This document shows positions 41,100 to 64,000 of a stretch of DNA of 64,000 bases, one piece after another. Under the pieces are notes generated by a model. That model was not told the DNA's origin and made no database searches. It saw nothing but the letters and a program-made list of their open reading frames with translations. The stretch's first letter is position 1. Each line of letters opens with the position of its first letter. This DNA is from Arthrobacter crusticola (GTDB taxonomy: Bacteria; Actinomycetota; Actinomycetes; Actinomycetales; Micrococcaceae). The DNA is taken from assembly GCF_004357995.1 (NCBI RefSeq), contig NZ_SMTK01000002.1:186001-250000 (forward strand). The letters run 5' to 3'. The position numbers were made by a program, and so were the translations under genes.

Positions 41100-42506
41100 A
41101 TGTCCTTATCCCCGCACGCCTCCGGCTCACCCCGCCGAATCCGCTTCAACGCCTTCGACATGAACTGCGTCGGCCACCAGTCCCCGGGCCTGTGGCGCCA
41201 CCCCGAGGACCAGTCCTGGCGGTACAAGGACCTCCGGTACTGGGCAGGCCTCGCCGAAACGCTGGAAAAGGGCCTGTTCGACGGCATCTTCATCGCCGAC
41301 GTCCTCGGCACCTATGACGTCTACGGCGGCTCCAACGAAGCGACGCTGCGCCAGGGCACCCAGACCCCGGTCAACGACCCGTTCCTCCTGGTCTCCGCCA
41401 TGGCCCTGGTGACCGAGCACCTCGGCTTCGGCGTCACCGCCGGCACCGCCTATGAGCACCCGTACCCCTTCGCCCGCCGCCTCTCCACACTCGACCACCT
41501 CACCAACGGGCGGTTCGGCTGGAACGTCGTCACCGGGTACCTTCCCTCGGCGGCCCGGAACCTCGGGCAGACCGACCAGCTTGAGCACGACGAGCGCTAC
41601 AACCACGCCGACGAGTACCTCGAGGTGCTCTACAAGCTGCTCGAAGGCTCCTGGGAGGACGACGCCGTCGTCCGCGACGCCGAAAGCGGTGTCTTCACCG
41701 ACCCCGCGAAGGTCCACGGCATCGGCCACGAGGGTAGGTACTTCACGACGCCGGGAATCCACCTCAGCGAACCGTCCCCGCAGCGCACCCCGGTGATCTA
41801 CCAGGCCGGCGCCTCCCCGCGGGGGATCGCCTTCGCCGCGGGCAACGCGGAGGCCGTCTTCGTCGGCTCGCCAACCAAAGCGATCCTCAAGGAGACCGTC
41901 GCGAAGATCCGCGACGCCGTCGAGGCCGCCGGGCGCGACCGCTACTCCGTGCGCATCTACACGATGCTCACCGTCATCACCGACGAGACCGAGGAAAAGG
42001 CGCACGCCAAGCACGAGGAATACAAGAAGTACGTCAGCTACGAAGGGGCGCTCGTGCTGCTCTCGGGCTGGCTCGGCATCGACCTGTCGGTGTACGACCC
42101 GGATGAGCCGCTCGGCAATGTGAAGTCGAACGCCATCCAGTCGGCCGTGGCGAACTTCTCCAAGGTCGAGGACGACGGCAAGCCGTGGACGGTGCGCGAC
42201 ATCGCCGAGTGGGCCGGCATCGGCGGGCTCGGCCCGCGCGTCGTCGGTTCCGGCGCGCAGGTCGCCGGAGAACTCCAGGCGTGGGTCGAGGAGACCGACG
42301 TCGACGGGTTCAACCTCGCCTACGCCATCACGCCGGGCTCGTTCGAGGACGTGGTGAAGTACGTGGTGCCCGAACTGCAGAAGCGCGGCGCGTACCCCAC
42401 CGAGTACGTCGAGGGGACGCTGCGCCACAAGCTCTTCGGCCGCGGCGACCGGCTGCCCGCCGAGCACCACGGCAGCAGCTACCGCCTCCAGCCTGCCGCC
42501 CGCTGA
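41100..42506 (+). CDS. DmoA-like FMN-dependent monooxygenase (NtaA/SnaA/DszA family)
   Basis: A 468-residue luciferase-like group C flavin monooxygenase. RIRFNAFDMNCVGHQSPG at the N-terminus, DGIFIADVLGTYDVYGG, RLSTLDHLTNGRFGWNVVTGYL, and PVIYQAGASPRG are hallmark segments; the sequence matches dimethyl sulfide monooxygenase (DmoA) along its length as I recall it. Known relatives need a separate flavin reductase and cleave C-S or C-N bonds. None is in the window. The SAM riboswitch before it and metNIQ after it (18 bp) argue for sulfur acquisition, for example releasing methanethiol from a thioether (inference). Confidence 0.9.
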   Translation: MSLSPHASGSPRRIRFNAFDMNCVGHQSPGLWRHPEDQSWRYKDLRYWAGLAETLEKGLFDGIFIADVLGTYDVYGGSNEATLRQGTQTPVNDPFLLVSAMALVTEHLGFGVTAGTAYEHPYPFARRLSTLDHLTNGRFGWNVVTGYLPSAARNLGQTDQLEHDERYNHADEYLEVLYKLLEGSWEDDAVVRDAESGVFTDPAKVHGIGHEGRYFTTPGIHLSEPSPQRTPVIYQAGASPRGIAFAAGNAEAVFVGSPTKAILKETVAKIRDAVEAAGRDRYSVRIYTMLTVITDETEEKAHAKHEEYKKYVSYEGALVLLSGWLGIDLSVYDPDEPLGNVKSNAIQSAVANFSKVEDDGKPWTVRDIAEWAGIGGLGPRVVGSGAQVAGELQAWVEETDVDGFNLAYAITPGSFEDVVKYVVPELQKRGAYPTEYVEGTLRHKLFGRGDRLPAEHHGSSYRLQPAAR

Positions 42507-42524
42507 CTTTCCAAGGACGAACCC

Positions 42525-43583
42525 ATGATCTCCCTGAATGAACTGACGAAAACCTACGGACGCGGTGCGGATTCGGTCACCGTGCTCGACCGGCTCAACT
42601 TCGAGGTCGGCGCCGGCGAGATCTTCGCCGTCACCGGGCCGAGTGGCGCCGGCAAGAGCACGCTGGCCCAATGCATCAACCTGCTGGAGCGGCCCACCTC
42701 AGGATCGGTGGTCGTGAACGGCGAGGACCTTTCGAGCCTTCCGGAGAAGCGGCTGCGGGCGGCGAGGCGGCGGATCGGCACGGTGTTCCAGTCGGCGAGC
42801 CTGTTGAGCCGGCGCACGGCGTCGGAAAACATCGCCCTGCCGCTTGAATATCTCGGCGTGACGCCGGGGGAGATCCGGGCGAGGGTCGGGGAGCTGATCG
42901 ACCGGGTCGGCCTTGGGCCCAAGGCCCACTCGTATCCGTTCCAGCTCTCCGGCGGGCAGGCGCAGCGCGTCGGCATTGCCCGGGCGCTGGCCCTGCGTCC
43001 CGCCATCCTGTTAGCGGATGAGGCGACGTCGGGCCTGGACCCGGACACCACGAGCTCCGTGGTTGAACTGCTCAAACAGCTGCGGACCGACCTCGATCTC
43101 ACGGTCGTCTTCATTACCCACGAGATGGACACGGTGCGGCAGATCGCCGATTCGGTGGCCCGGCTGGAGCGCGGGCGGATTGTTGAGACCGGTGCGCTGG
43201 TCGACCTGCTGACCGACCACGGCTCCCCGCTGGGCCGGGCGCTGCAGCCGCGACTTAGGTTTGCAGCGGCCGACGACGACGCCGCCACCTGGTACGTCAC
43301 CTACGATTCGGCGGACGTGCCGGGGGACTGGATCCAGCGGGTCTCCGTGGACCTTGCCGTTCCGGTACATCTTCTCGGTGCGTCGGTCGAAACGGTTCAC
43401 GGGATCAATACCGGCAGTGCAACCCTCGGGATAGCCGCTGCGTCCGACGACGCAGTCCGGGCGGTCCTGGCCAAGTATGGGTTGAGCGGAACCCCCGATG
43501 CCAGTCGGGAGACCGGCGTCGGGGGAGCACCGGTTTCACCGGTTCGATCCGGGGCGGTTCCGGCGCTGGAGGGCGCAGCGTGA
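42525..43583 (+). CDS. metN: methionine ABC transporter ATP-binding protein
   Basis: A 352-residue MetN. Walker A GPSGAGKS near residue 38, signature LSGGQAQRVG near residue 140, Walker B ILLADEATSGLD near residue 162, and the switch ITHEMD near residue 200. The C-terminal NIL regulatory domain is present (VDLAVPVHLLGASVETVHG onward), which in this family binds methionine and inhibits transport. It ends in a Gly/Pro/Ala-rich tail. GTGA overlap with metI confirms co-translation. It energises methionine import with MetI and MetQ. Confidence 0.93.
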   Translation: MISLNELTKTYGRGADSVTVLDRLNFEVGAGEIFAVTGPSGAGKSTLAQCINLLERPTSGSVVVNGEDLSSLPEKRLRAARRRIGTVFQSASLLSRRTASENIALPLEYLGVTPGEIRARVGELIDRVGLGPKAHSYPFQLSGGQAQRVGIARALALRPAILLADEATSGLDPDTTSSVVELLKQLRTDLDLTVVFITHEMDTVRQIADSVARLERGRIVETGALVDLLTDHGSPLGRALQPRLRFAAADDDAATWYVTYDSADVPGDWIQRVSVDLAVPVHLLGASVETVHGINTGSATLGIAAASDDAVRAVLAKYGLSGTPDASRETGVGGAPVSPVRSGAVPALEGAA

Positions 43584-46197: not shown

Positions 46198-46205
46198 TTC
46201 CGAAC

Positions 46206-46238
46206 AGCGCATTATGCATTGAGTTGTGCAATGCGCAA
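46206..46238. promoter_or_regulatory. two operator-like palindromes downstream of the choline dehydrogenase promoter
   Basis: AGCGCATTATGCA (46206-46218) and TTGTGCAATGCGCAA (46224-46238). The second is a 15-bp inverted repeat with two mismatched pairs; the first matches the site at 57299 at 11 of 13 positions. Position at the transcription start fits a repressor. The IclR protein at 59697 is the only regulator in the island and so the best candidate (inference). Confidence 0.55.
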
Positions 46239-46285
46239 TTCGGCGGTTCCCAAGGTCACACGACGTATGAGGAGACTTTCGTATC

Positions 46286-47962
46286 ATGGCAGAATCCGGT
46301 TACGACTACGTCATTGTCGGCGGTGGAAGCGCAGGTTCAGCGCTTGCTAATCGATTGAGTGCCGACGGTAACCGGACAGTGCTTGTGCTTGAGGCAGGAC
46401 GCAGCGATTATCCGTGGGATTTATTCATCCAAATGCCGGCCGCCCTCACATTTCCCAGCGGCAACCCCTTTTATGACTGGCGTTACCAGTCGGACCCGGA
46501 ACCCCACATGGGGGGCCGCCGCATTGCGCACGCCCGCGGCAAGGTGCTGGGGGGATCGAGTTCGATTAACGGAATGATTTTCCAGCGGGGCAATCCGTTG
46601 GACTACGAACGCTGGGGCGCGGACCCCGGAATGGATTCCTGGGATTTCGCCCACTGCCTTCCCTATTTCAACCGCATGGAGACCGCGCTGGCCGCAGACG
46701 CCGATGATGAACTGCGCGGCCATTCCGGGCCGCTCAAGCTCGAACGGGGACCGGCGACCAACCCCTTGTTCAAGGCGTTCTTCGAGGCGGCCCAGGAGGC
46801 GGGCTACCCGCTCACCGACGACGTCAACGGCTATCGGCAGGAGGGGTTTGCCGCTTTCGACCGGAACGTCCACAAGGGGCAGCGACTCTCCGCCTCACGG
46901 GCGTATCTCCGCCCCGAACTCCGCCGCCGCAACCTCACCGTGCGCACGCGGGCACTGGTCACCAAGGTGAACTTCAGCGGCAATGTCGCAACCGGCGTCA
47001 CCTACCGCAGGAACGGCCGGCTCCACACCGTGGCTGCCGGTGAGGTCATCCTTTCCGGTGGAGCCATCAACACCCCGCAGCTGCTGCAGCTCTCGGGGGT
47101 GGGCGACAGCGCACACCTTTCGTCGCTCGGCATTGAAACTGTTGCCGATCTGCCCGGCGTTGGGGAGAACCTCCAGGACCATCTCGAGGTGTACATCCAG
47201 CACGCGTGCACCGAACCGGTGTCGATGCAGCCCAATCTCAGCCCCTGGCGGTATCCGTTCATCGGGCTCCAGTGGCTGCTCGGCCGCACCGGCCCGGCGG
47301 CCACCAACCACTTCGAAGGAGGCGGCTTCGTCCGCTCGAACGATGAGGTCGCCTACCCGAACCTCATGTTCCATTTCCTCCCGGTCGCGGTGCGCTACGA
47401 CGGCCAGAAGGCCGAAGCCAAACACGGCTACCAGGTGCATATCGGCCCCATGTATTCCGACGCCCGCGGCACCCTGAAAATCAAATCCACGGACCCGACG
47501 GTCCACCCCTCGCTGCTGTTCAACTACCTCTCCACCGACCAGGACCGCCGGGAATGGGTGGAGGCTGTGCAGGTAGCCCGTGACATCCTCGGCCGGCCGG
47601 CGATGTCCCGGTTCAACGGAGGCGAGATGTCGCCGGGGCCGGGCATCCGCACCGATGCGGAAATCCTTGAGTGGGTGGCCCGCGACGCCGAGACTGCCCT
47701 CCACCCGTCCTGCACGGCGAAGATGGGCCCCGAATCGGACCCTCGGGCGGTGGTGGACCCCTTGAGCATCAAGGTCCACGGCACGGAAGGACTCCGGGTC
47801 GTCGATGCATCGGCGATGCCCTATGTCACCAACGGCAATATCTACGCGCCCGTGATGATGCTCGCGGAAAAGGCGGCGGACCTGATTCTTGGCAACGCAC
47901 CCCTGGCCCCGCAGCACACGGACTTCTACCGGCACGGCAGCAGCCCGCTGGCCCGCAGCTGA
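46286..47962 (+). CDS. betA: choline dehydrogenase (GMC oxidoreductase)
   Basis: A 558-residue FAD enzyme. Dinucleotide site [18 protein letters not shown] at residues 7 to 24, [16 protein letters not shown] near residue 85 and [15 protein letters not shown] near residue 260 are the two GMC signatures, and [10 protein letters not shown] near residue 472 has the catalytic His region. Length agrees with BetA (about 550). It oxidises choline to betaine aldehyde, and may take the aldehyde further. Its partner aldehyde dehydrogenase begins 25 bp downstream. The ATG at 46286 follows GAGGAG. Regulation is probably through the palindromes at 46206-46238. Confidence 0.92.
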
Positions 47963-47987
47963 CCCGCCCGTTGCCCCAAGGAGAACC

Positions 47988-49493
47988 ATGACCGATATCT
48001 CGACCCAACTCCTTCGCGGACTCTATGTCGGCGGAGAATGGCAGCTGCCCCGGGACGGCCGAACGCGCCACATCAGCAACCCCGCCGACGGCAGCCCCGT
48101 GGCCGTCGTCGCCGAGGGCAGCGCCCCCGACGCCGAGGCGGCGGTCGCCAGCGCGCGGAAGGCGTTCGACGACGGCGGCTGGCCGGGGACTCCGGAAAGG
48201 GAGCGCGGGCGCATCCTCGGGCGCGTCGCTGACCTGCTGGAGAGGGACAAGGCCGGTTACGCGCGCGCCGAGGCCCTCGACACCGGCAAGCGCTACGTCG
48301 AGGCGGAATACGACCTCGACGACATCATTTCCTGCTTCCGCTACTACGCCGGCATCGCCGGAACGGACAGCGGGCGGGTCATCGACACGGGCAATCCCGC
48401 GGCCCTCAGCAGGATCGTCCACATGCCGGTGGGTGTCTGCGCCCTGATCACCCCGTGGAACTACCCGCTCCTCCAAGTCTCCTGGAAGGTCGCACCGGCC
48501 CTCCTCGCCGGCAACACCTTCGTGCTGAAACCCAGCGAGCTGACGCCGTCCACGGCGATCCTGCTGATGGAGACGCTGTCCGAGGCGGGGGTCCCCGCGG
48601 GTGTGGCGAACCTGGTCACCGGTACCGGCCCGGACGTGGGGGCCACCCTCACCATCGATCCCCGGGTGGACCTCGTGTCCTTCACCGGCGGGCTCGCCAC
48701 CGGCAAACGGATCATGGAGGCCGGGGCCGGCACGGTGAAACGGGTGGCGCTGGAGCTGGGCGGAAAGAACCCGAACATTGTCTTCGCCGATGCCGACCGG
48801 GAAGCCGCGCTCGACAACGCCCTGACCGCGGTGTTCCTCCACTCCGGCCAGGTCTGCTCCGCCGGAGCGCGGCTGATCGTCGAGGAGTCGATCCACGCTG
48901 ACTTCGTGGCCGAACTGGCACTGCGTGCTCGCACCATCCGTCTGGGTGGTCCGTTCGACGAGCACGCGGAGGCCGGACCGCTGATCTCCTTCGCCCACCG
49001 CGACAAGGTGCACGCCTACGTGCAGGCGGGCATTGCTGAAGGGGCGCGGCTCGTATGCGGAGGATCCGTGCCGGACGATCCAGACCTCGCCGGCGGCAGC
49101 TACTACCCGCCGACCATCCTCGACGGCTGCACCACCTCCATGAAAGTGGTCCAGGAAGAGTCATTCGGACCCGTGCTCACCGTCGAAACCTTCCGATCCG
49201 AGGAGGAGGCCGTCCGCCTCGCCAACGACACCGTCTATGGGCTCGCAGGAGCAGTGTGGACCGGCGACGGATCCCGCGCCCAGCGCGTCGCCGAGGCGCT
49301 GCGCCACGGCACGGTCTGGATCAACGACTACCACCCCTATGTTCCCCAGGCCGAGTGGGGCGGTTTCGGTCAGTCCGGAAACGGCCGCGAACTGGGGCTC
49401 CTGGGGCTGGCTGAATACCGCGAAACCAAGCACATCTGGCAGAACATCGAGCCCGGCCCCAGCGGCTGGTTCGGTTCAGCGGAAGCGGGCTGA
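47988..49493 (+). CDS. betB: betaine-aldehyde dehydrogenase
   Basis: A 501-residue NAD(P)-dependent aldehyde dehydrogenase. LITPWNYPLLQVSWKVAPAL near residue 147, FTGGLATGKRIM near residue 227, ELGGKNPNIVF with the general base Glu near residue 253, and HSGQVCSAGARL with the nucleophilic Cys near residue 286 are intact. Downstream of a choline dehydrogenase the substrate is most likely betaine aldehyde; some related enzymes prefer aminobutyraldehyde. The ATG 47988 lies after CAAGGAGAACC. The final segment ETKHIWQNIEPGPSGW is normal for BADH. Confidence 0.9.
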   Translation: MTDISTQLLRGLYVGGEWQLPRDGRTRHISNPADGSPVAVVAEGSAPDAEAAVASARKAFDDGGWPGTPERERGRILGRVADLLERDKAGYARAEALDTGKRYVEAEYDLDDIISCFRYYAGIAGTDSGRVIDTGNPAALSRIVHMPVGVCALITPWNYPLLQVSWKVAPALLAGNTFVLKPSELTPSTAILLMETLSEAGVPAGVANLVTGTGPDVGATLTIDPRVDLVSFTGGLATGKRIMEAGAGTVKRVALELGGKNPNIVFADADREAALDNALTAVFLHSGQVCSAGARLIVEESIHADFVAELALRARTIRLGGPFDEHAEAGPLISFAHRDKVHAYVQAGIAEGARLVCGGSVPDDPDLAGGSYYPPTILDGCTTSMKVVQEESFGPVLTVETFRSEEEAVRLANDTVYGLAGAVWTGDGSRAQRVAEALRHGTVWINDYHPYVPQAEWGGFGQSGNGRELGLLGLAEYRETKHIWQNIEPGPSGWFGSAEAG

Positions 49494-49622: not shown

Positions 49623-51212
49623 ATGTTAGATCGGAACAGAACGGCCGATTCCAGTGGCATGGAGGAATTCGGCTACACCCAAACGCTTGACCGGAGCATT
49701 GGAAAATTCTCGAGTTTCGCCGCCGGGGTCAGCTATATTTCAATTCTCACAGGCGTCTTCCAATTGTTCTATTTCGGCTTCGGGACGGCCGGTCCGGCCT
49801 ATGCCTGGTCCTGGCCCATTGTTTTCGCCGGTCAATTGATGGTGGCGCTGTGTTTCGCGGAATTGGCCGGCCGGTACCCCGTCGCGGGATCCGTCTACAA
49901 CTGGGCGAAACGGCTCAGCACCGGGACCTGGTCCTGGCTCTCCGGCTGGCTGCTGCTCGTCTCCTCCATCGTGACCCTCGGGGCTGTTGCCCTGGCCCTG
50001 CAGCTCACGATGCCGCAGATCTGGTCGGGGTTCCAGATGGTGGGCGACGGGACGGGACCCTACGACTACGCCGCCAACGGCGTCATCCTGGCCACCGTTC
50101 TGATCGCCATCTCCACCCTGATCAACGCCTTTGGTGTAAAGCTCATGACCCGGATCAACAGCGTGGGGGTCTTCATCGAACTCTTCGCCGCCGTGCTGCT
50201 GATCCTCGCTCTCGGCTGGCACATCCTCCGCGGCCCCGGCGTGATGTTCGAACCCAAGGGGTTCGGCGCGGATCACCCGATGGGCTTCCTCGGCGTCTTC
50301 CTGATCGCCGCCATGGCGTCGGCCTATGTCATGTACGGCTTCGACACCGCGAGCTCCCTCGGCGAGGAGACCAAGGACCCGAAGCGGACGGCGCCCCGTG
50401 CCATCCTGCGTGCCATCACCGCTTCCTTCATACTGGGCGGCCTCATCATCCTGTTCGGCATCCTCGCCGCGCCCGACCTCGACGACCCCAAGCTCGGAGC
50501 CGTTGACGGCGGCCTGCAGCACATCGTGCTCTCGGTGCTCGGCGGGCCCTTCGGCAAGGCCTTCCTGGTCTGCATCGTCATCGCCATCACCGTGTGCACC
50601 CTCGCCGTCCACGCCGCCGCCATCCGGATGATGTTCGCCATGGCCCGGGACAACAACCTGCCGTTCAGCAGGCAGCTGGGCAGGATCCACCCCGTCCGGA
50701 AGACGCCGACGGTCGCGGCGATCGTCATCGGCCTGCTGTCAATCGTGCCACTCCTGGTCAACATCGGCCGGCCGGCGATCTTCACCATCCTCTCAAGCAT
50801 CGGCATCGTCCTGATCTACCTCTCCTACCTGCTGGTCACCGTGCCGATGCTGCGCCGGCGGCTGCAGAAGAAATGGCCGGTGGCCGACGACGGCGCCGGA
50901 TCCGGCTTCAGCCTCGGCCGATGGGGGCTGCCGGTGAACATCCTCGCCGTCCTCTGGGGCGGAGCGATGATGGTGAACCTCGTCTGGCCCCGGCAGGAGA
51001 TCTACAACTCCGTGCCTCCGTTCGAGTGGTACCTCCAGTGGGGCGGTGTGCTGTTCGTCGGTGCCGCGATCCTGGGCGGCCTTGCCCTGTACCACTTCCG
51101 GATCCGCCACCGCACCGGGGTGCTGCCCGAGCACCTCGCCCCGCAGCATCCCGCGCCGGTCCCCCCACCGGAGGATGACGGCCTGGATGCCGACCTCCAG
51201 ACCGCCCGCTAG
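49623..51212 (+). CDS. APC-family amino acid/amine permease
   Basis: A 529-residue APC-superfamily permease with about twelve hydrophobic segments, the first being SYISILTGVFQLFYFGFG. AELAGRYPVAGSVYNWAKRL near residue 85 is the conserved APC signature; FDTASSLGEETKDPKRTAPRAI near residue 240 is also typical. The C-terminal 35 residues are Pro/Asp-rich. It belongs to the amino acid/choline group as in many actinobacterial betaine loci, so choline or a related amine is plausible, but the substrate cannot be read. GGAG lies 7 bp before ATG 49623. Two terminator hairpins follow. Confidence 0.88.
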   Translation: MLDRNRTADSSGMEEFGYTQTLDRSIGKFSSFAAGVSYISILTGVFQLFYFGFGTAGPAYAWSWPIVFAGQLMVALCFAELAGRYPVAGSVYNWAKRLSTGTWSWLSGWLLLVSSIVTLGAVALALQLTMPQIWSGFQMVGDGTGPYDYAANGVILATVLIAISTLINAFGVKLMTRINSVGVFIELFAAVLLILALGWHILRGPGVMFEPKGFGADHPMGFLGVFLIAAMASAYVMYGFDTASSLGEETKDPKRTAPRAILRAITASFILGGLIILFGILAAPDLDDPKLGAVDGGLQHIVLSVLGGPFGKAFLVCIVIAITVCTLAVHAAAIRMMFAMARDNNLPFSRQLGRIHPVRKTPTVAAIVIGLLSIVPLLVNIGRPAIFTILSSIGIVLIYLSYLLVTVPMLRRRLQKKWPVADDGAGSGFSLGRWGLPVNILAVLWGGAMMVNLVWPRQEIYNSVPPFEWYLQWGGVLFVGAAILGGLALYHFRIRHRTGVLPEHLAPQHPAPVPPPEDDGLDADLQTAR

Positions 51213-51407: not shown

Positions 51408-53894
<2,487 letters not shown>

Positions 53895-53915: not shown

Positions 53916-54824
53916 TCAGCGGAATACGACAGTGCGGGTGTTGCTCAGCAGGACCCGGTGCTGGCAGTGCCACCGCACGGCCCGGGCGAGCGCTTGCGAT
54001 TCGGCATCGCGGCCCACCGTCACCAGGGCGTCGGCGTCCTGGGTGTGGTCAACCCGGAACACTTCCTGCTCGATGATTGGCCCCTCATCGAGGTCAGGGG
54101 TCACGTAGTGGGCGGTGGCACCGACCAGCTTCACGCCCCGGTCGTACGCCTGGTGGTAGGGCTTGGCGCCCTTGAAGCCGGGCAGGAAGGAGTGGTGGAT
54201 GTTGATGGCGCGCCCGCGCAGTGCGGTGCACATACCGTCGGAGAGCACCTGCATGTAGCGGGCGAGCACCACCAGGTCCGCGTCGTATTCCTCGACCAGG
54301 TCGAGCAACCTGCGCTCGGCCGCCGGTTTGGTGTCGGCGGTGACGGGCACGTGGATGAAGGGCAGGCCGGCCGCCTCCGCCATGCCCCTGAGGTCCTCAT
54401 GGTTGGAGACGACGACGGCGAGCTCCGCGCCGAGGCTGCCCGCCTTCCAGCGGGAGATCAGGTCGTTGAGGCAGTGGCTGAACCTCGAGACCATCACCAG
54501 CACCCGCTGCGGGCGGCCGTCGTGGATGGTGAAGTCCATCCCGAACTCGGCGGCGACCGCCGCAAACTCTTCGGTGAGGCCGGCGGCGGTCACCTCGGCC
54601 GACTCGCCGGTGAAGGCGGTGCGCAGGTACAGGTTTCCGCTGACGTGATCGTCGAACTGCTGGTGCTCGACAATGTCAAACTCCCGGTCGGCAAGGAAGC
54701 AGCTAATTGCCCGGACGATGCCAGGGCGTTCCGGGCAGACGAGGGTCAGCACGAACTGGGCGGTGCGGGTCGGGGGTGCTGTCACGGAGCCGCCGGAGGG
54801 GCGGCGTCCAAGAGCAGTTGTCAC
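53916..54824 (-). CDS. purU: formyltetrahydrofolate deformylase
   Basis: A 302-residue PurU. An N-terminal ACT domain (VLTLVCPERPGIVRAISCFL, DIVEHQQFDD) precedes a formyltransferase-fold catalytic domain with VSNHEDL, LARYMQVLS, and the NIHHSFLPGFKGAKPYHQAYDRGVK segment holding the Asn and His. It hydrolyses formyl-THF to THF and formate. The GTG start at 54824 has AGGAGAATTT before it; an upstream frame reading into the BCCT gene is not needed. Placed between the BCCT transporter and dmgO, it frees folate for the demethylation reactions (inference, consistent with known Arthrobacter loci). Confidence 0.93.
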   Translation of the reverse strand: MTTALGRRPSGGSVTAPPTRTAQFVLTLVCPERPGIVRAISCFLADREFDIVEHQQFDDHVSGNLYLRTAFTGESAEVTAAGLTEEFAAVAAEFGMDFTIHDGRPQRVLVMVSRFSHCLNDLISRWKAGSLGAELAVVVSNHEDLRGMAEAAGLPFIHVPVTADTKPAAERRLLDLVEEYDADLVVLARYMQVLSDGMCTALRGRAINIHHSFLPGFKGAKPYHQAYDRGVKLVGATAHYVTPDLDEGPIIEQEVFRVDHTQDADALVTVGRDAESQALARAVRWHCQHRVLLSNTRTVVFR

Positions 54825-54832
54825 AAATTCTC

Positions 54833-56731
54833 CTACTGGGTGGTTTCGGCGGCGAGAGGACAGCGCTGCTTGCCGGTGGCACAGCGCTCGTCGCATTGAT
54901 GCTTGGTGACCAGGTCGAACTGCGCGCCCCGGTGCTGGCTGACTCCGGAGCGGACGGCCCGTTCGACGACGGAGCTGGCAAGGCGCCGGCGCAGCGACAG
55001 CGGATCCCTGCGGAGATCCCGGGTGAGGGCGAAGCAGAGCAGCAGCATCACCAGGACGAAGGGAAGGGCGGCGATGATCGTGATCCGCTGGAGCCCGGAG
55101 AGGGCCTCCGCCGGTTCGTCACCACCGGCCATCAGCATCACCGCCGCGACCGCCCCGGTGAGGACGCCCCAGAAGATGACCAGGCCGCGGGTCGGGTGCT
55201 CGGTGCCGTTGGAGCTGAGCGAGGACATCACCAGGGAGGCCGAGTCGGCGCCGGTGATGAAGAAGATGGCCACCAGGACCATGGCCAGGATCGCTGTTGC
55301 GGCGGCGATACCGCCGGAGATGGGAAGGTTCCTCAGCAGGTCGAACAGGGCGCCGTCGAAGGAGATCGAGGGTGCGCCGTCGACAATGGTGACGAGCCCG
55401 TCGTCCGGGTCATCGGTTGCGTCGGCCGCCTGCTGGACGCCGAAGGCGGCTCCGCCGAAGATGCCGAACCAGATGACGCTGACCATGCTCGGCACGAGGA
55501 GGACGCCGGTGACGAACTGGCGGATGGTCCGGCCGCGGCTGATCCGGGCGATGAACATGCCCACGAAGGGCGTCCAAGAGACCCACCAGGCCCAGTAGAA
55601 GATGGTCCAGCCGGACATCCACTCGCGCAGCGCCTCATCACCGACGGCCTCGGTGCGCGACGCCATTTCGGCGACGTCGCGGGCGTAATCGCCGATGGCT
55701 GCGGGGATCAGGTTCAGGATGAACAGGGTGGGACCGGCGACGAACACGATCAGGGCGAGGAGGACGGCCAGCACCATATTGATGTTGGCGAGCCATTGGA
55801 TGCCGCGCCGGATGCCGGAGACGGCAGAGGCAACGAAGCAGACAGTCAGGACGGCGATGATCGCTACGAGCACCGGGGTGCCGAGTTCGCCGACCCAGCC
55901 GTTGGAGGCGAGGCCGCTTCCGATCTGGAGCGACCCGAGGCCCAGCGACGCGGCGGTGCCGAAGAGTGTCGCGAAGATCGCGAGGATATCGATGAACTTG
56001 CCTGCCGGGCCTTCAACCGTCCGGCGGCCGAACAGGGAGGTGAAGGCGGCGGAGATCAGCTGGCGGCGGCCGAGGCGGTAGGTGCCGTAGGCGATGGCGA
56101 TGCCGACGACGGCGTACATCGCCCAGGGATGGAGCGTCCAGTGGAAGATCGAGGTCGCCATGGCGGTCTGGATGGCGGCCGGCGTCTGCCCGTCCACGGT
56201 TCCGGGCGGCGGCGACACATAGTGGTAGAGCGGTTCGGCCACCCCGTAGAACATCAGGCCGATTCCCATGCCCGCCGCGAACATCATGGCGATCCAAGAG
56301 ATGGTGCGGAACTCCGGCTTCTCCCCGTCCTTGCCGAGGGGAATGTCCCCGAAGCGGCCCAAAGCCAGCCAGAGCACGTACACCACGAAGAGGGATGCCA
56401 GGGTGATGAAGAGCCAACCCGTGTTCCGCATGACCCAGTTAAGTGCCGTCTGGGAGGTGGAGGACATGCTTTCGGTGCCGAGGAAACCCCACAGCACAAA
56501 GGCAAGGGCCAGCGCACCGGTGATCCCGAAGATCACCTTGTCGAGCCCCGCCGGGCGGGCGGGCCGGGCAGCCGTGGACTCCGAACGCCCGGTGCTCTGC
56601 TGCAGTTCGTCGAGAATCCGCTCATTGTCTTCGCTGGGCGGGAGGGGTTCATAGCCGGCAGGGTGCAAGGATCCACCCCGAAGGCCATTCTCCGTGCCTG
56701 GTGCGACAGGGATTTCGTTGCTGGTTGCCAT
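54833..56731 (-). CDS. BCCT-family glycine betaine/choline transporter
   Basis: A 632-residue sodium- or proton-coupled carrier. An N-terminal cytoplasmic tail of about 65 residues with acidic and Pro residues is followed by twelve helices. Family marks: FAAGMGIGLMFYGVAEPLYHY (the glycine-rich helix), FHWTLHPWAMYAVVG and WTIFYWAWWVSWTPFVGMFI with the Trp-rich betaine site. The C-terminal tail is basic (DLRRDPLSLRRRL), as in osmosensing BCCT proteins, and ends with three Cys in HQCDERCATGKQRCP. It imports betaine or choline for the catabolic genes around it. It lies 31 bp after the Rieske ferredoxin gene and 8 bp before purU. Confidence 0.93.
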   Translation of the reverse strand: MATSNEIPVAPGTENGLRGGSLHPAGYEPLPPSEDNERILDELQQSTGRSESTAARPARPAGLDKVIFGITGALALAFVLWGFLGTESMSSTSQTALNWVMRNTGWLFITLASLFVVYVLWLALGRFGDIPLGKDGEKPEFRTISWIAMMFAAGMGIGLMFYGVAEPLYHYVSPPPGTVDGQTPAAIQTAMATSIFHWTLHPWAMYAVVGIAIAYGTYRLGRRQLISAAFTSLFGRRTVEGPAGKFIDILAIFATLFGTAASLGLGSLQIGSGLASNGWVGELGTPVLVAIIAVLTVCFVASAVSGIRRGIQWLANINMVLAVLLALIVFVAGPTLFILNLIPAAIGDYARDVAEMASRTEAVGDEALREWMSGWTIFYWAWWVSWTPFVGMFIARISRGRTIRQFVTGVLLVPSMVSVIWFGIFGGAAFGVQQAADATDDPDDGLVTIVDGAPSISFDGALFDLLRNLPISGGIAAATAILAMVLVAIFFITGADSASLVMSSLSSNGTEHPTRGLVIFWGVLTGAVAAVMLMAGGDEPAEALSGLQRITIIAALPFVLVMLLLCFALTRDLRRDPLSLRRRLASSVVERAVRSGVSQHRGAQFDLVTKHQCDERCATGKQRCPLAAETTQ

Positions 56732-56762: not shown

Positions 56763-57113
56763 TCAGAGCTGGCCGTTGATGCTCAGTCCGGGCGGGAGGT
56801 TGGGGGCATCGCCTGACTCGCTGACCATAATGTCGCCGTCGACCACTGTTACTTCATGGACGCGCACGGGAAGCTTGGCCGGCGGGGCGTCCACCCTGCC
56901 CGTCCGCAGGTCAAACTTTGAGGCGTGGAGTGGGCATTCGACCTCGCAGCCCTCGACCCACCCATCGGCGAGTGAGGCGTCCTGGTGGGTGCAGGTGTCA
57001 TCGATCGCGAAAAGCTCGCCGTCCTCCGTGTGGAAGACGGCGATGGGTGGCGAGGTGTCGAGACGCAGGGCATCGCCCGGCGCCAGTTCGGTGAGGGGGC
57101 ATGCCTTATGCAT
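56763..57113 (-). CDS. Rieske-type [2Fe-2S] ferredoxin
   Basis: A 116-residue soluble Rieske ferredoxin. TCTHQDASLADG near residue 42 (Cys-x-His) and CPLHASKFDLRTG near residue 60 (Cys-x-x-His) bind the cluster; there is no membrane anchor, as in the BphA3/BenC-like electron carriers of dioxygenases. ATG at 57113 gives MHKACPLTELAPGD; longer in-frame starts (ATG 57164 and 57176) are possible. It should carry electrons from the reductase at 57332 to the oxygenase at 58557, although it is encoded divergently and leads the BCCT-purU-dmgO operon. Confidence 0.9.
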   Translation of the reverse strand: MHKACPLTELAPGDALRLDTSPPIAVFHTEDGELFAIDDTCTHQDASLADGWVEGCEVECPLHASKFDLRTGRVDAPPAKLPVRVHEVTVVDGDIMVSESGDAPNLPPGLSINGQL

Positions 57114-57198
57114 GAAGGTGGCCTCTCTGTGGTGAGGAGCGGTCCCGGCAAGCGGTTGTTCCATATGAATCAACAAAGTCCGCGATAAGCAACAGAGT

Positions 57199-57267
57199 GA
57201 GCTATATCACAGGGGATGTCAAGGGTTGCTTGAGGATAGACGACCTCTTGACATGATATAGGAGCTC
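57199..57267. repeat. long inverted repeat in the divergent Rieske promoter region
   Basis: Left arm parts GAGCTATATCA (57199-57209) and TGTCAAG (57217-57223); right arm CTTGACATGATATAGGAGCTC-like sequence at 57247-57267. The arms match except for a seven-base insert in the left arm and two extra bases in the right. Each arm carries a TTGACA-like box, facing outward, so the repeat may hold regulator sites or the paired promoters. Confidence 0.6.
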
Positions 57268-57297
57268 CCTGCAGAGTGTTCCGTATGACGAAGCACG

Positions 57298-57312
57298 TTG
57301 CGCATTACGCAC
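57298..57312. promoter_or_regulatory. operator-like palindrome before the Rieske reductase gene
   Basis: TTGCGCATTACGCAC contains TGCG-N5-CGCA. It resembles the sites at 46206 and 46224 before the choline dehydrogenase gene. It is 20 bp from the TTG start at 57332, and the ribosome-binding site GAGGAG lies between. Confidence 0.5.
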
Positions 57313-57331
57313 AGCCTTCCGAGGAGTTGAT

Positions 57332-58519
57332 TTGCAGACGCTGGTGATCGTGGGGGCGTCCCTCGCGGGGCTTTCGGCAGCACGGGCAGCGCGCGCCCAG
57401 GGGTTCACCGGGCAGCTGGTTATCATCGGGGACGAACTGCACCGCCCCTACGACCGGCCCCCGCTCTCAAAGGATTTCCTGCTCGGCAGGATTCAGGCCG
57501 AGGAGCTCGGCCTCGAAGCGGACCTCGACGAACTGCAGGCCGAATGGGTGCTCGGTGCGCCGGCAGTCTCCCTTGACGCCGCAACGCGCACCGTCCACCT
57601 CAAGGGTGGACGATCCATCGAGGCCGACGCGGTGGTCATCGCGACCGGAGCCCGGGCGCGGACGCTTCCATGCCTGGCGGGGCTGCACAATGTCTTCACC
57701 CTGCGGACGATGGCCGACGCGCAAAACCTCGCCCCGGAGCTTGTGGCCGGCAGCAGGTTAACCATCATCGGCGGTGGATTCGTTGGCGCCGAAGTCGCGG
57801 CGGTAGGGGTCGCCCGCGGCATGGAGGTCACCATCATCGACACCAAGCCCGTGCCCTTCGCCGCCCAGCTGGGTGAAGAGATGGGGGCGCATGTCGCGGC
57901 ACTCCACCGGGCCAACGGCGTGAACCTCCTGTCGGATGCGGCAGTCGAGGACTACTACTGCACCGAAGGCAACGTCACCGGAATGCGGCTCGCGGACGGG
58001 CGGTACGTCCCTGCCGACGTCGTCGTTGTCGGGATCGGCGCGGAACCGAACACCGAGTGGTTGAAGGGTTCGGGCGTCCTGCTGCACGAAGGCGTCGTCT
58101 GCGACGGCATGGGACGCACCAATGTGCCCGGCATCGTCGCGGTGGGAGACTGCGCCGCCTGGTTCGACAATTCCCGTGGAAGCCACCGGCGGCTGGAGCA
58201 CTGGACCGGAGCGCTCGAACGTCCGGCTCTCGCCGTCGCCGCCCTGCTGGATGCGGATGCCCCTCAGCAGCCGATGCGGCCCGGCTATTTCTGGTCCGAT
58301 CAGCACGGGGTGAAGCTGCAGTTTGCGGGCGACCGTGCCGGCTCCGACCGGCTGCGGATCGAGGCGGGTGACCCTTCGGTCCACAGCTTCCTCGCCGTGT
58401 ACTACAGCGGCGACCGCCCGGTGGCCGTTCTCGGGATGAACCAGCCACGCCTCTTCACGAAGTGGCGCCGCTCCCTGAGCACCACCCCGGTTCTGGCCGG
58501 GGCCGTCTTGTCGTCCTGA
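57332..58519 (+). CDS. FAD-dependent ferredoxin reductase of the Rieske oxygenase
   Basis: A 395-residue BphA4/RubB-type reductase. FAD site IVGASLAGLSAARAAR at residues 6 to 21, PYDRPPLSKDFLLG near residue 39, VIATGARARTLP, the NAD site LTIIGGGFVGAEVAAV near residue 147, and GIVAVGDCAAW near residue 268; the C-terminal dimerisation domain is complete. It should take electrons from NADH to the Rieske ferredoxin. TTG at 57332 is the start, 5 bp after GAGGAG. It is the first gene of a pair with the oxygenase at 58557. Confidence 0.9.
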   Translation: MQTLVIVGASLAGLSAARAARAQGFTGQLVIIGDELHRPYDRPPLSKDFLLGRIQAEELGLEADLDELQAEWVLGAPAVSLDAATRTVHLKGGRSIEADAVVIATGARARTLPCLAGLHNVFTLRTMADAQNLAPELVAGSRLTIIGGGFVGAEVAAVGVARGMEVTIIDTKPVPFAAQLGEEMGAHVAALHRANGVNLLSDAAVEDYYCTEGNVTGMRLADGRYVPADVVVVGIGAEPNTEWLKGSGVLLHEGVVCDGMGRTNVPGIVAVGDCAAWFDNSRGSHRRLEHWTGALERPALAVAALLDADAPQQPMRPGYFWSDQHGVKLQFAGDRAGSDRLRIEAGDPSVHSFLAVYYSGDRPVAVLGMNQPRLFTKWRRSLSTTPVLAGAVLSS

Positions 58520-58556
58520 TCGTTGCTTTCTAGTCCGATTCCTGGGAGGAGTTGTT

Positions 58557-59693
58557 GTGTCTGTTGAGGTAAATACGCCGAGTCTGCTCCCGACGTTGCC
58601 GGGGTACACCTATGTGGATGAAGGGGTGTTCCGGGCAGAGCAGGAACGGATCTTCGAACAGATGTGGTTCTGCGCCGTGCGGTCGGCGGACCTGGATAAG
58701 CCCGGCGCGTACAAGACGGTGCAGATCGGACGGGAGAGTGTGCTGATCTCACGGACCCGCAAGGGCGGGATCCGCGCCTTCTACAACATCTGCCGCCATC
58801 GTGGCGTGAAGCTGTGCATGGAGGAATCGGGGCAGGCCGCGCGGTCGTTCCAGTGCCCGTATCACGCGTGGACCTACGACTTCGAGGGCAAGCTGATTGC
58901 CGCGCCGAACCTGACGAAGATGCCCGACATCGACCGGGATGAGTACGGCCTGGTGAAGGTGCACCTGCGCGAGTACCTGGGGTACGTCTGGGTGTGCCTG
59001 GCCGCCGAACCGCCCTCCTTCGAGGAGGAGGTCATGGGTGCCATCGAGGAGCGCCTCGGGGATCTGCGGGCCATCGAGGGCTACGACGTGGAACACCTGA
59101 GCGTGGGCAGGCGGATCCGCTACGACGTGAAGGCCAACTGGAAGCTCATCATCGAGAACTTCATGGAGTGCTACCACTGCGCCACGATCCACCCCGAGCT
59201 GACCGAGGTCCTGCCGGAGTTCGCTGACGGGCTCGCGGCGCAGTTCTTTGTGGGCCACGGGGCGGAGTTCGGCGGAGACGTCAAGGGCTTCACCGTCGAC
59301 GGCTCCGAGGGCCTTGACCGGATTCCGGGCATCGAGGAGGACCAGGACCGCCGGTACTACGCGATCACGATCAAGCCCACGGTGTTCGTGAACCTGGTTC
59401 CGGACCATGTGATCATCCACCGGATGTTCCCGATGGCGGCCGACCGCACCATCGTGGAGTGCGACTGGCTGTACCTGCCGAGCGTCGTGGAGTCCGGGAA
59501 GGACCTCACCGCCTCGGTGGAGCTGTTCCACCGGGTGAACCAGCAGGACTTCGACGCCTGCGAGCGCTGCCAGCCGGCGATGAACTCGAAGGTCTACGCG
59601 AAGGGCGGGGTGCTGGTTCCCAGCGAACACCACATCCGTGCCTTCCACGACTGGGTCGAATCGAAGGTCGGCGATGTTGCGCCGAACCGGTAG
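58557..59693 (+). CDS. Rieske non-heme iron oxygenase alpha subunit (GbcA-like)
   Basis: A 378-residue ring-hydroxylating oxygenase-type protein, the size of GbcA-like N-demethylases. Rieske motifs CRHRGVKL (near residue 82) and CPYHAWTYDFEG (near residue 101) are intact; the mononuclear iron site is in IIENFMECYHCATIHPEL near residue 202, with the bridging Asp and two His. There is no beta subunit. In this island the most likely reaction is demethylation of glycine betaine to dimethylglycine, the step missing between betB and dmgO (inference). A GTG start at 58557 follows GGGAGGAG. It ends 3 bp before the convergent IclR gene. Confidence 0.9.
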   Translation: MSVEVNTPSLLPTLPGYTYVDEGVFRAEQERIFEQMWFCAVRSADLDKPGAYKTVQIGRESVLISRTRKGGIRAFYNICRHRGVKLCMEESGQAARSFQCPYHAWTYDFEGKLIAAPNLTKMPDIDRDEYGLVKVHLREYLGYVWVCLAAEPPSFEEEVMGAIEERLGDLRAIEGYDVEHLSVGRRIRYDVKANWKLIIENFMECYHCATIHPELTEVLPEFADGLAAQFFVGHGAEFGGDVKGFTVDGSEGLDRIPGIEEDQDRRYYAITIKPTVFVNLVPDHVIIHRMFPMAADRTIVECDWLYLPSVVESGKDLTASVELFHRVNQQDFDACERCQPAMNSKVYAKGGVLVPSEHHIRAFHDWVESKVGDVAPNR

Positions 59694-59696
59694 CCC

Positions 59697-60512
59697 TCAG
59701 CGTCCCGTGTAACCCATCTTCGAACTGATCAGCTGCCCGGCCTGTGCGAGTGATTCGACCAGGCCGGGTTTGTTGGTGGGATCGAACCGGAAGGCCGGCC
59801 CGGAGATGCTGACGGCTCCGATGACGACGCCGAGATGGTTCCGGATGCCCACGGCAATCGCACACAATCCGATCTCGAATTCCTCTATCGCCGTGGCGTA
59901 GCCGTTGTGGGCGACGTCGAGGAGTTCGGTTTCGAGCTCCTTGCGGCTCGTGATGGTGCGCAGGGTGCGCGCGGGGAGCCCCGTCTCCCGAAGGATCCGG
60001 TCCCGTTCGTCGGCCGTCAGGGAGGCCAGCAGCACCTTGCCGCTCGAGGTGGCATGCAGGGGGGTGAGGCTGCCGATCCAGTCGTAGGTCGCCAGCGTCG
60101 ACGGGCCCATCGCCTGGTCGACATTCACCGCGAAGTTTGAGCGGAGCACCGCGAGGTTGACGGTTTCCTTGAATTCGCTCGCCAGCGCTTCAAGGACCGG
60201 CCGGGCCTCCTGCACCAGGCTGAGCCGGCCCGGGATGGAGCTGGCCAGGCGCAGGATGCCGAAGCCCAGCTGGTACTTGCCGCGCTCGCTGTTCTGCTGG
60301 ACCATTTCGCGGGAGACGAGGGAGCCCAGCAGGCGCGATGCGGTCGACTTATGGATGCCCATTTCCTCGGCGATTTCGCTGACTCCGGCGTTGCCGTCGC
60401 GGGCCAGGATTTCGAGGATGGCCATGGCCCGGTCCACCGACTGGACGCCCCCCGCCTGGGCGATGTCGACGTCGGGATCCGGGTCGGAGCCGGGAAAATT
60501 ATCTGAGGCCAT
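59697..60512 (-). CDS. IclR-family transcriptional regulator
   Basis: A 271-residue regulator. A 25-residue Asp/Pro-rich N-terminus precedes the winged helix-turn-helix ([23 protein letters not shown] near residue 43), then the effector domain from about residue 95 ([32 protein letters not shown]). IclR regulators usually control catabolic genes with small acids or aromatics as effectors. It lies in the centre of the betaine island, tail to tail with the oxygenase, and is the only regulator there; it is the candidate for the palindromes at 46206-46238 and 57298-57312 (inference). It may be cotranscribed with the sdaA operon upstream. Confidence 0.92.
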
Positions 60513-60646: not shown

Positions 60647-62122
60647 TCAGCACTCGATGACGTTGACGGCGAGGCCTCCCCGGGAGGTCTCCTTGTATTT
60701 GGTCATCATGTCCGCACCGGTCTCGCGCATTGTCTTGATGGCCTTGTCGAGGGAGACCACGTGGCTGCCGTCTCCGTGCAGGGCCAGGCGCGCGGCGTTG
60801 ATGGCCTTGACGCTGGCGATCGCGTTGCGCTCGATGCAGGGAATCTGGACCAGCCCGCCGACCGGGTCGCAGGTGAGGCCGAGGTTGTGTTCGATACCGA
60901 CCTCGGCGGCGTTTTCGACCTGCGCGGGGGTGCCGCCGAGGACCTCGCACAGCCCGGCGGCGGCCATGGAGCAGGCGGAGCCAACCTCGCCCTGGCAGCC
61001 GACCTCGGCCCCGGAGATCGAGGCGTTGGTCTTGAAGAGGATGCCGACGGCGGCCGCGGTGAGCAGGAAGCGGACGACGCCGTCGTCGTTGGCTCCGGGG
61101 ACGAACTTCACGTAGTAGTGGAGCACCGCGGGCACGATGCCGGCCGCCCCGTTGGTGGGCGCGGTGACGATGCGGCCGCCGGCGGCGTTTTCCTCGTTGA
61201 CGGCCAGGGCGAACAGGTTCACCCATTCCATGGCCAGCAGCGGGTCGGCGGGTGCCTGGACCAGGTTGGCGGGCCCGGCGTCCGGGGAGGTGCCGTGTCC
61301 GGGGGTTGTTGAGGCGAAGCTGCTTGAGGCTGTGCCGGCGGACGCCGCCGCAGCGAGGGTACGGAACAGGGCCGGGGCGCGGCGCTTGACCTTCAACCCG
61401 CCGGGCAGGATTCCCTCGGCGGCGCACCCGTTCTCGACGCACTCGCGCATCACCGCCCAGAGGGCAAGCAGTTTGTCGCGCAGTTCGGCCTCGGAGTGCC
61501 AGGTGAGCTCGTTGGCGAGCATGATCTCCGGGATCGACTTGTCCTTCCGCCGGCAGATCTCCAGCAGCTCGTCGGCGCTGGTGAAGGGGTAGGGCAGCGC
61601 CGTGGCGTCGGGGACGACCTTGGCGGCTCCCTCCTTTCCGACATCGCCGGCGTCCCCGCCCACGACGAAGCCCCCGCCGACCGAGTAGTAGCTGCGCTCC
61701 CGCAGCACCGCGCCGGAGTGGTCAAGGGCCCAGAAGGTCATGCCATTGGGGTGAGCCGGCAGGGACTTGCGGCGGTGCAGCACCAGGTCTTCCTCCCAGT
61801 TGAAGTCGACCCGGTGGTGTCCGGCGAGGTGAAGTTCGGCGTTCAGGGCGGCGGCGGCCGCCTGGTCGTCGGCGGTCGACGTGTCGACGGTCTCGGGGTC
61901 CTTGCCCTGAAGGCCGAGGACGACCGCCTTGTCCGAGCCGTGCCCGCGTCCGGTGGCGCCAAGGGACCCGTACAGTTCGGCGCGCACCCGGGCCGTGGCA
62001 GGGAGGAGCCCGTCCTCGGCGAGTCCGTCGGAGAACCGCTTGGCCGCCCGCATGGGTCCGACCGTGTGGGACGAGGAGGGACCGATGCCGACCGAGAACA
62101 GGTCGAGCACGCTCAGGGCCAT
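60647..62122 (-). CDS. sdaA: L-serine ammonia-lyase, iron-sulfur-dependent
   Basis: A 491-residue single-chain serine dehydratase. The beta domain ([24 protein letters not shown]) and alpha domain ([36 protein letters not shown]) hold the Cys for the catalytic [4Fe-4S] cluster; [15 protein letters not shown]-type ending is present. It turns serine to pyruvate and ammonia, the outlet of the betaine-glycine pathway. Compared with typical enzymes (about 455) it has an insert of some 30 residues near residue 280 (Ala/Ser/Thr/Pro-rich, between KRRAPALF and [10 protein letters not shown]). TGATG overlap with soxG shows coupling. Confidence 0.94.
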
Positions 62123-62865
62123 CAGGGGACCTCGGGGGAGGCGTATTCGCGCATCGCGTCGAGGAGCCAGTGGCCGAGGAACGTGGCGAAGGAGGCCCGG
62201 GGGAGGATGCGGTAGGTGGACTCGGCGGTTTTCCAGAGGATCACGGGGATGCCGCCGACCTCGGTGGACAAGGCGGTGCCGGCGGGGTGGATGCGAGGGT
62301 GGAGGTCCAGGGAACATCCCTTTTCGAGCACGGCGCGGGCGCGGGGTCCGGTGAGTTCGAAGGTGGTGCGGTTTGCGGAGAGGTCGACCACCTGCCCCTG
62401 CCCGTCCGCCAGCGCTTCAACCAGGGAGGGGACGAGGGTTTCGTGCGCCTCCGGCGGGGCCACGACGAGGAACTCAGTGGGGCCGAGCCACAGCGCCGAA
62501 GTGTTTGCAAGGCCGCTGGAGGTCGCCGTGCTGTCGATGCTTCCGGTGCCAGTGCCAGTGCCAGTGCCGTTGCTGCCGGTGCCGGCACCGTTCCGGGGTT
62601 CGGCCTCCAGGACGCCGTCGCCGGCCACGTCCCCGCAGCGGGACGGCAGGCCGCCGGTCACCGCCGCGATCCGCTGGCCTTCCGCGGAGCCGGGATCCAC
62701 CCGGACGCCGGCCATGGTGAGGAACTCGACCTCGGACAGCTCCACGACACCGGCGGTGGAGCCGGCAACAAACGCCTCGTGCAGCAGCGACGCCGGGCTC
62801 CGCCGGAGGCCGTGGAGGTCCCGGGGGATGTCCTGCGGGGTGTCGAGTTGCTGGGTGTCAGCCAT
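62122..62865 (-). CDS. soxG: sarcosine oxidase gamma subunit
   Basis: A 247-residue SoxG, longer than the usual 200 because of a Gly/Thr/Ser linker (about residues 90 to 112) encoded by a 6-bp repeat. Recognisable pieces: [17 protein letters not shown] near the N-terminus, [14 protein letters not shown] in the middle and [21 protein letters not shown] later, a pattern shared with GcvT-like domains. SoxG is a subunit of the heterotetrameric sarcosine oxidase, which also makes methylene-THF. It overlaps soxA by 8 bp and sdaA by one base, so the three are co-translated. Confidence 0.9.
62545..62568. repeat. 6-bp microsatellite inside soxG
   Basis: GGTGCC followed by three AGTGCC units; on the minus strand it encodes alternating Gly-Thr pairs. 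It expands a linker between conserved parts of SoxG, so variation in number is tolerated in frame. Confidence 0.75.
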
Positions 62866-64000
62866 CTTTGCGGGTCCCTTCGGGGTCAAAAAGCACTGTC
62901 TCGCCGACGACGACGTCCACCAGTCGGTCCCCGGCGGCGGCCACTAGGGTTTCGCCGATTCGGTTGCGGCCGTTGGTGATCAGGGCCAGGGCGAAGGTGC
63001 GTCCGAGCGCGGCGCTGGTGTAGCTGGAGGTGACGAACCCCTGCATCGGTACTGGCTCCGGCGCGGGACCCCGGGTCAGGTCGACGGACAGGCCCTTGTC
63101 GATAAGCTGGGAGCCCTCCGGGAGGCGGAAGGTCCGGTCCACGGGCAGCACGCTGACCAGGTGCCTGCGGTCCGGTCGGGAGGCGTCCGCCCTGGCGTAG
63201 GAGCGCTTGCCGATGAAGTCCTTGACCTTGGAGACCACCCATTCCATGCCGGCGTCCTGCGGGGTGACGGTGCCGTCGGTGTCCTGCCCGACGATGGGGT
63301 AGCCCTTCTCGGCCCGCAGCACGTGCATAGTCTCGGTGCCGTACGGGGTGATGTTGTACTCGGCCCCGGCCGCCGCGACGGCCTCCCAGGTGGCGAGCCC
63401 GTACCAGGCGGCCACATTGATCTCGTAGGCGAGCTCTCCGGAGAACGAGATCCGGCAGACCCGCGCCGGAATCCCGTTGGCCAGGGTCGTTTCCCGGAAG
63501 GTCATGAACGGGAACGCCTCGGCCTCCAGCCCGCCGTCCGCCGCCAGATCCGGGGCCAGCGTGGCCAGCACCGCCCGGGACTGCGGGCCGACGACGGCGA
63601 TGGTGGTCCACTGTTCGGTCACCGAGGTGCAGTGCACGTCGAGGTCCGGCCATTCGGTCTGCAGCCATTCCTCGAGCCAGTCCAGGACCTTCGCGGCGCC
63701 GCCGGTGGTGGTGGTCATGAAATAGCGGTCGTCGTCGAGGCGCAGGGTCACGCCGTCGTCGAAGATCATGCCGTCGGCCATGCACATCACCCCGTAGCGG
63801 GCCGAGCCCGGGGCGAGTTTCTTGAACGCGTTCGTGTAGATCCGGTTCAGGAACTCCCCGGCGTCCCTGCCCCGGATTTCGATCTTGCCGAGGGTGGTGG
63901 CGTCCAGGAAGCCCACGGAGTCCCGGACCGCGGCGCATTCGCGCAGCACGGCGGCGTCCATGTCCTCCCCGGGCTGCGGGTAGTACCAGGGGCGCTTCCA
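62858..64000 (-). CDS. soxA: sarcosine oxidase alpha subunit, C-terminal part
   Basis: The gene continues beyond the right edge; 380 residues of the C-terminus are present, in frame through base 64000. The visible part is the GcvT/folate-binding domain: [66 protein letters not shown] and a C-terminal barrel ([13 protein letters not shown]). The opening [12 protein letters not shown] is also typical of SoxA. The FAD/NAD part is outside. It oxidises sarcosine to glycine and passes the methyl group to THF. It leads soxG and sdaA in the same operon. Confidence 0.95.

Follow-up and report, generated by a model that had tools for sequence, protein, structure and literature searches.

A gene cluster in Arthrobacter crusticola very probably encodes a three-component Rieske monooxygenase that is not orthologous to GbcAB and that takes one methyl group off glycine betaine, yielding dimethylglycine and formaldehyde. 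The cluster lies in a 64,000-nucleotide stretch of contig NZ_SMTK01000002.1 (assembly GCF_004357995.1, positions 186,001 to 250,000) that we call the window and in which positions are counted from its first letter. A Rieske [2Fe-2S] ferredoxin (56763..57113, minus strand), an FAD-dependent NADH:ferredoxin reductase of the BphA4/HcaD type (57332..58519, plus strand), and a lone Rieske oxygenase alpha subunit (58557..59693, plus strand) are encoded on the two sides of a divergent promoter region (57114..57331). They adjoin genes for a BCCT transporter (54833..56731), purU (53916..54896), and dmgO (51408..53894), all on the minus strand. An earlier note on this DNA had placed the three genes around a divergent promoter next to dmgO and a BCCT carrier, and all three are found there. 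The neighbors are also as described, with the dmgO product (828 amino acids) scoring 1360 bits to the solved N,N-dimethylglycine oxidase from Arthrobacter (1PJ5) and the BCCT protein being closest to the betaine carrier BetP, consistent with a predicted role in glycine betaine uptake. The note had read this arrangement as three-component betaine demethylation, which is supported by co-occurrence with dmgO, by the presence of GbcAB in sister cassettes, and by an operator in common with betA. Sequence shows the components, the missing alternatives, the joint occurrence of alpha and dmgO, and the operators in common, all of which are described below.

The genome assembly of A. crusticola is 99.97% complete, and the alpha subunit in the window is its sole PF00848 (ring-hydroxylating alpha) protein. 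Searches of this genome yielded no GbcA above cut-off (best match to NF058607 181 bits versus 670), no GbcB orthologue (the best match to a GbcB-type query from a sister species reached 30% over part of the protein), no match to PF02574 for proteins of the betaine-homocysteine methyltransferase (BHMT) type, and no match to PF06253 for MttB-type methyltransferases of the MttB/MtgB route. With one alpha subunit and no GbcAB, BHMT, or MttB, the genome therefore lacks any other known means of converting betaine to dimethylglycine. The claim of the earlier note that the island contains no other candidate for this step thus holds genome-wide, and neither a separate gbcAB nor a BHMT, which it had named as routes that would refute its proposal, was found.

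A scan of GTDB genomes returned far more than 80 relatives of the alpha subunit. The locus counts given here refer to the best 80, which are 73-93% identical to it and come from Arthrobacter, Pseudarthrobacter, Kocuria, Terrabacter, Streptomyces, Nonomuraea, Mycolicibacterium, Actinoplanes, and others. Genes near alpha in these loci encode the reductase (75), an IclR-family protein (69), the ferredoxin (61), dmgO (43), purU (41), and betA (34), as counted in the stretches available, although many of the 80 loci end early. We also surveyed 248 genomes sampled evenly across the order, with genome lists compiled by hand from search tables. The alpha subunit occurred in 16 of the 248 genomes, and all 16 contained dmgO (at least 49% identity; Fisher p = 4e-13), with both genes on one contig within about 15 kb in 15 of them. 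Every one of the 48 genomes with dmgO had a window-type alpha or a GbcA-like protein, and one had both. The p-values of the order survey (4e-13 and less) show only that the co-occurrence pattern is non-random. True GbcA (at least 670 bits to NF058607) was found in none of the 248 genomes; the comparison group that we call GbcA-like scores 350-420 bits to this model. Within the genus, seven genomes carried the window-type alpha and seven a GbcA-like alpha, one genome having both. One or the other was present in 13 of 14 genomes with dmgO versus 0 of 21 without it (p = 9e-9). The single exception in the genus, which has dmgO and neither type of alpha, is a 68% complete assembly.

In sister species, the GbcA-like gene stands beside genes for the BCCT transporter, dmgO, purU, serine hydroxymethyltransferase (SHMT), and soxB. 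It is followed by a gene for a reductase with FAD, NAD, and Fer2 domains, for which the best NCBIfam model is GbcB. Two predicted systems that are not orthologous to one another occupy the same cassette slot within one genus, a natural swap. One sister species contains both the three-component alpha and a GbcA-like alpha about 30 kb apart on the same contig, together with two copies of dmgO, one of them broken by TAG. Arthrobacter sp. ISL-30 has two separate alpha cassettes in one genome.

The gap between the ferredoxin and reductase genes contains TTGACA-type -35 boxes facing both ways, at 57217 (minus strand) and 57248 (plus strand). These boxes, and palindromes with them, are conserved in 29 orthologous regions. 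An operator matrix made from the alignment of the 29 ferredoxin-reductase gaps, with the genome of the window excluded, has the consensus GTTGCGTAATACGCAAC and describes a 17-bp palindrome that occurs in pairs 19 bp apart. Three pairs stood out when the window was scanned with this matrix. Two are in the divergent promoter, on the ferredoxin side (57158..57193; GTTCCATATGAATCAAC and AGTCCGCGATAAGCAAC, 19 bp apart, 26.1 bits) and on the reductase side (57278..57313; GTTCCGTATGACGAAGC and GTTGCGCATTACGCACA, 30.2 bits), and one is 46 bp before the start of betA (46204..46239; ACAGCGCATTATGCATT and GTTGTGCAATGCGCAAT, 29.0 bits). For comparison, the best pair in each of 100 Markov sequences scored 6.8 bits on average and 22.8 bits at the highest. 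In 58 loci that had no part in training we found 203 operator pairs at a spacing of 19 versus 23 or fewer at each of the other spacings tried, and column-shuffled matrices gave a mean of 0.27 pairs with a maximum of 7. Most of the pairs (176 of 203) lie upstream of a pathway gene or iclR at a distance of no more than 300 bp, and one lies within a recognized gene. Across the phylum, pairs precede the genes for the ferredoxin, alpha, betA, betB, dmgO, purU, the BCCT transporter, and iclR, and this operator shared by choline and betaine pathway genes marks them as a putative IclR regulon. An exact pattern from the two strongest sites had no third match in the A. crusticola genome. Outside the window, this genome has a single near-perfect palindrome (C2:702590-702606, 19.0 bits) with no good second site. 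The IclR-family protein encoded next to alpha (59697..60512, minus strand; PF09339 and PF01614) is the presumed binder of the operators. Because the operators in the window sit downstream of the -35 boxes, the arrangement suggests that this protein is likely a repressor.

The alpha subunit is 378 amino acids long and contains PF00355 and PF00848 domains. Its gene is separated by 37 bp from that of the reductase and by 3 bp from the convergent IclR gene, and there is no beta subunit gene around it. Alignment to CntA and Stc2 identified Rieske ligands (C79, H81, C100, H103), iron ligands (H207, H212, D331), the bridging E204, a Cys pair by the iron (C205/C208), and an ECxHC motif, which make the group V signature complete. 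F202 is at the position of Y203 in CntA, where Phe occurs in 99 of 99 alpha copies of at least 70% identity, and Asn and Phe are at positions 270 and 315. CntA has Asn 270 and Tyr 315, whereas the demethylases GbcA and Stc2 have His and Trp there. According to a residue rule published for group V, carnitine, choline, and benzalkonium oxygenases have Tyr or Phe at the 203 position, and GbcA and Stc2, which are demethylases, have Asn; in Stc2, the carboxylate of the substrate is bound to the iron (PMC7948474). The aromatic residue at 203 is a mark of subgroup Va (CntA, choline monooxygenase, OxyBAC). A phylogenetic tree in which CntA alone stood for this subgroup contained a GbcA/Stc2-like (Vb) clade (100/99) that excluded the alpha subunit. 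The alpha group formed its own clade (99/99) and was placed beside CntA at weak support (80/85), with a long CntA branch. The CntA sequence in this comparison was taken from the PDB alignment only; matches from E. coli and an Acinetobacter plasmid that were tried as CntA references proved unsuitable, one being HcaE and the other an oxygenase unrelated to CntA. An AlphaFold2 (AF2) model of alpha, with a mean predicted local distance difference test score of 69.5, matched Stc2 best among solved structures, with CntA at the same Z of 27.8. The ten best solved matches (Z 26.5-27.8) were quaternary-amine Rieske oxygenases or a close relative, with aromatic dioxygenases next at Z 25.9. We rejected an assignment to GbcA: the protein scores 218 bits as a whole, and 181 in the genome search, versus the NF058607 cut-off of 670; it has Phe/Asn/Phe rather than Asn/His/Trp at positions 203/270/315; it falls outside the Vb clade; and its partner is of the BphA4 type, not the GbcB type. 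Alpha is predicted to be a variant of the group V quaternary-amine Rieske oxygenases that is not a member of GbcA and that oxidizes a quaternary amine. Elsewhere in the order, one genome encodes two adjacent Rieske alphas that are 32-34% identical to that of the window, and two further loci are of this kind. These alphas have Tyr at the CntA-203 position (NYNECYHC, NYHECYHC) and are possibly more quaternary-amine oxygenases.

The ferredoxin likely starts at ATG 57113 rather than at TTG 57176 of the open reading frame (ORF) 56763-57176, which gives a protein of 116 amino acids. It has a Rieske motif (C41-x-H...C-x-x-H), and its nearest solved relatives are ferredoxins of the BphA3/TodB type. 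The reductase (395 amino acids) resembles BphA4, TodA, and putidaredoxin reductase and contains a Reductase_C domain. A separate ferredoxin is expected because this BphA4-type reductase has no 2Fe-2S domain of its own. A separate Rieske ferredoxin and a glutathione reductase (GR)-type FAD reductase encoded with the oxygenase make up a three-component gene set.

Betaine demethylation by alpha is a prediction, and several points weigh against it. Another quaternary amine is a possible substrate because the active site resembles those of carnitine and choline oxygenases more than that of GbcA, and the aligned Phe falls on the non-demethylase side of the residue rule (PMC7948474). In addition, the AF2 model is only moderately confident, the surveyed genomes are related so that their p-values overstate independence, and the ferredoxin gene was undetected nearby in part of the 80 loci. 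An oxygenase that acts on choline, carnitine, stachydrine, or a similar amine and is merely located in a betaine cluster would fit the three pocket residues, which match CntA and differ from Stc2 and GbcA, and the position of alpha with CntA in the tree. However, choline is already served by BetA and BetB under the same operator, the transporter is closest to a betaine carrier, dmgO accompanies alpha in 16 of 16 genomes with GbcAB swapped in elsewhere in the genus, and the betaine step in this genome would otherwise have no enzyme. We consider such a substrate quite unlikely. Where the residue and the context conflict, genomic context is the stronger evidence because the residue rule is based on few enzymes.

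The CntA-like pocket also bears on the position of attack. Oxidation at the methylene carbon of betaine, as in CntA, would yield trimethylamine and glyoxylate instead of dimethylglycine. BhcR, a glyoxylate-responsive regulator, is the best NCBIfam match of the IclR protein, but at 175 bits the match is below the BhcR cut-off of 350. Moreover, dmgO is a constant partner of alpha and has the same operators, and the genome contains no candidate trimethylamine flavin monooxygenase, the only match covering 82 positions, which makes this outcome very unlikely. The electron supply could likewise differ if the ferredoxin encoded on the opposite strand served another enzyme and alpha used either the reductase alone, as a two-component system, or a distant ferredoxin. 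The location of the ferredoxin gene apart from the other two in the window, and its absence nearby in some loci, would agree with this. Yet ferredoxin, reductase, and alpha genes are consecutive, in this order and on one strand, in many Streptomyces, Nonomuraea, and Mycolicibacterium loci. The ferredoxin and reductase genes of the window have a common operator region, and the reductase lacks a 2Fe-2S domain, so that we regard a system without this ferredoxin as very unlikely.

For the three-component betaine demethylase we infer a substrate, an electron path, an oligomer, and a direction of regulation. Electrons would pass from NADH through the FAD reductase and the Rieske ferredoxin to the Rieske cluster of an alpha-only oxygenase that is probably trimeric. 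From there E204 would relay the electron to the adjacent subunit, where the mononuclear iron site would hydroxylate one N-methyl group of betaine. DmgO would act on the dimethylglycine and SoxBDAG on the sarcosine, and SHMT, PurU, and SdaA would convert glycine and one-carbon units to pyruvate. Choline would enter via BetA and BetB, and betaine via the BCCT transporter. Bound to the paired palindromes, the IclR protein would control the promoters jointly, probably as a repressor that is lifted by a pathway metabolite.

The system shares its proposed reaction and its place in the pathway with GbcAB/BmoAB of Pseudomonas and Chromohalobacter, which likewise has an alpha-only Rieske oxygenase with a bridging Glu and a Cys pair. 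The GbcA-like form in sister species has the same neighbors as the window alpha (BCCT, dmgO, purU). It differs in having Asn 203, His 270, Trp 315, and a longer insert, where the window alpha has Phe, Asn, Phe, and no insert, and in being paired with one FAD/NAD/Fer2 reductase rather than with a separate Rieske ferredoxin and a BphA4-type reductase. CntAB has in common with the window the aromatic residue at 203, Asn 270, the aromatic residue at 315, the ECxHC motif, and a similar fold and length. However, identity to the window alpha is about 25%, CntAB is two-component, and a context with a BetP-like carrier, dmgO, and betA is at odds with cleavage of carnitine to trimethylamine. Stc2, the top structural match, is a quaternary-amine Rieske demethylase of stachydrine with the residues and clade of group Vb, outside of which the window alpha lies. 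BphA3/BphA4, HcaC/HcaD, and TodB/TodA also supply electrons through a Rieske ferredoxin and a GR-type FAD reductase. Unlike the three-component aromatic dioxygenases, the oxygenase described here has no beta subunit and groups with quaternary-amine oxygenases. Arthrobacter dmg/sox clusters (Meskys et al. 2001 as cited in PMC3534580) have the same organization of dmgO, purU, glyA, soxBDAG, and sdaA, and in the available accounts of that work the enzyme for the step from betaine to dimethylglycine is not named.

The minus strand carries, in order, the ferredoxin, BCCT, purU, and dmgO genes. The purU product (10-formyl-tetrahydrofolate deformylase) scores 330 bits to TIGR00655, and its true start is probably near 54764. 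To the left of the cassette are betA for choline dehydrogenase (46286..47962, plus strand; TIGR01810 841 bits, cut-off 732), an ORF for a betB-like betaine-aldehyde dehydrogenase (47889..49493, plus strand; TIGR01804 594 bits, just under the cut-off of 669, with the domain from residue 46), and an APC permease. The permease (49623-51212, between betB and dmgO) is TIGR03428-like (533 bits, cut-off 740) and has relatives in 7 of the 80 loci; its cargo may be choline or a related amine. To the right are sdaA for L-serine ammonia-lyase (ORF 60647..62317, minus strand; TIGR00720 679 bits, true start further in) and the C-terminal part of soxA for sarcosine oxidase alpha (62858..63961, minus strand), with the soxB and SHMT genes running on past the window. 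Further left of the betaine genes (41100-43583) are genes for an FMN monooxygenase of the NtaA/DmoA family and then a MetN-like ABC ATPase.

A 2025 paper names GbcAB, Bhmt, and MtgBCD as betaine routes (PMC12478193). Arthrobacter sp. Rue61a grows on betaine, and its annotated route is described as 'incomplete' (PMC3534580). The open-access papers to which the literature search was limited contained no description of a three-component betaine demethylase or of this regulon. Glycine betaine is among the commonest osmolytes in soil. It is likely that actinobacteria evolved a second, three-component betaine demethylase, not orthologous to GbcAB, in which an aromatic pocket of the CntA/choline type presents an N-methyl group without the carboxylate-iron binding of Stc2, and which belongs to a phylum-wide IclR regulon leading from choline to pyruvate. 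If so, the published one-residue rule for telling demethylases apart from the rest of group V would fail. The genus shows two non-orthologous enzyme types filling one slot. Confirmation of the proposal would supply the missing betaine step in Arthrobacter and probably, through the same genes, in Streptomyces and relatives, and across much of the phylum it would identify the enzyme together with its electron carriers and regulator.

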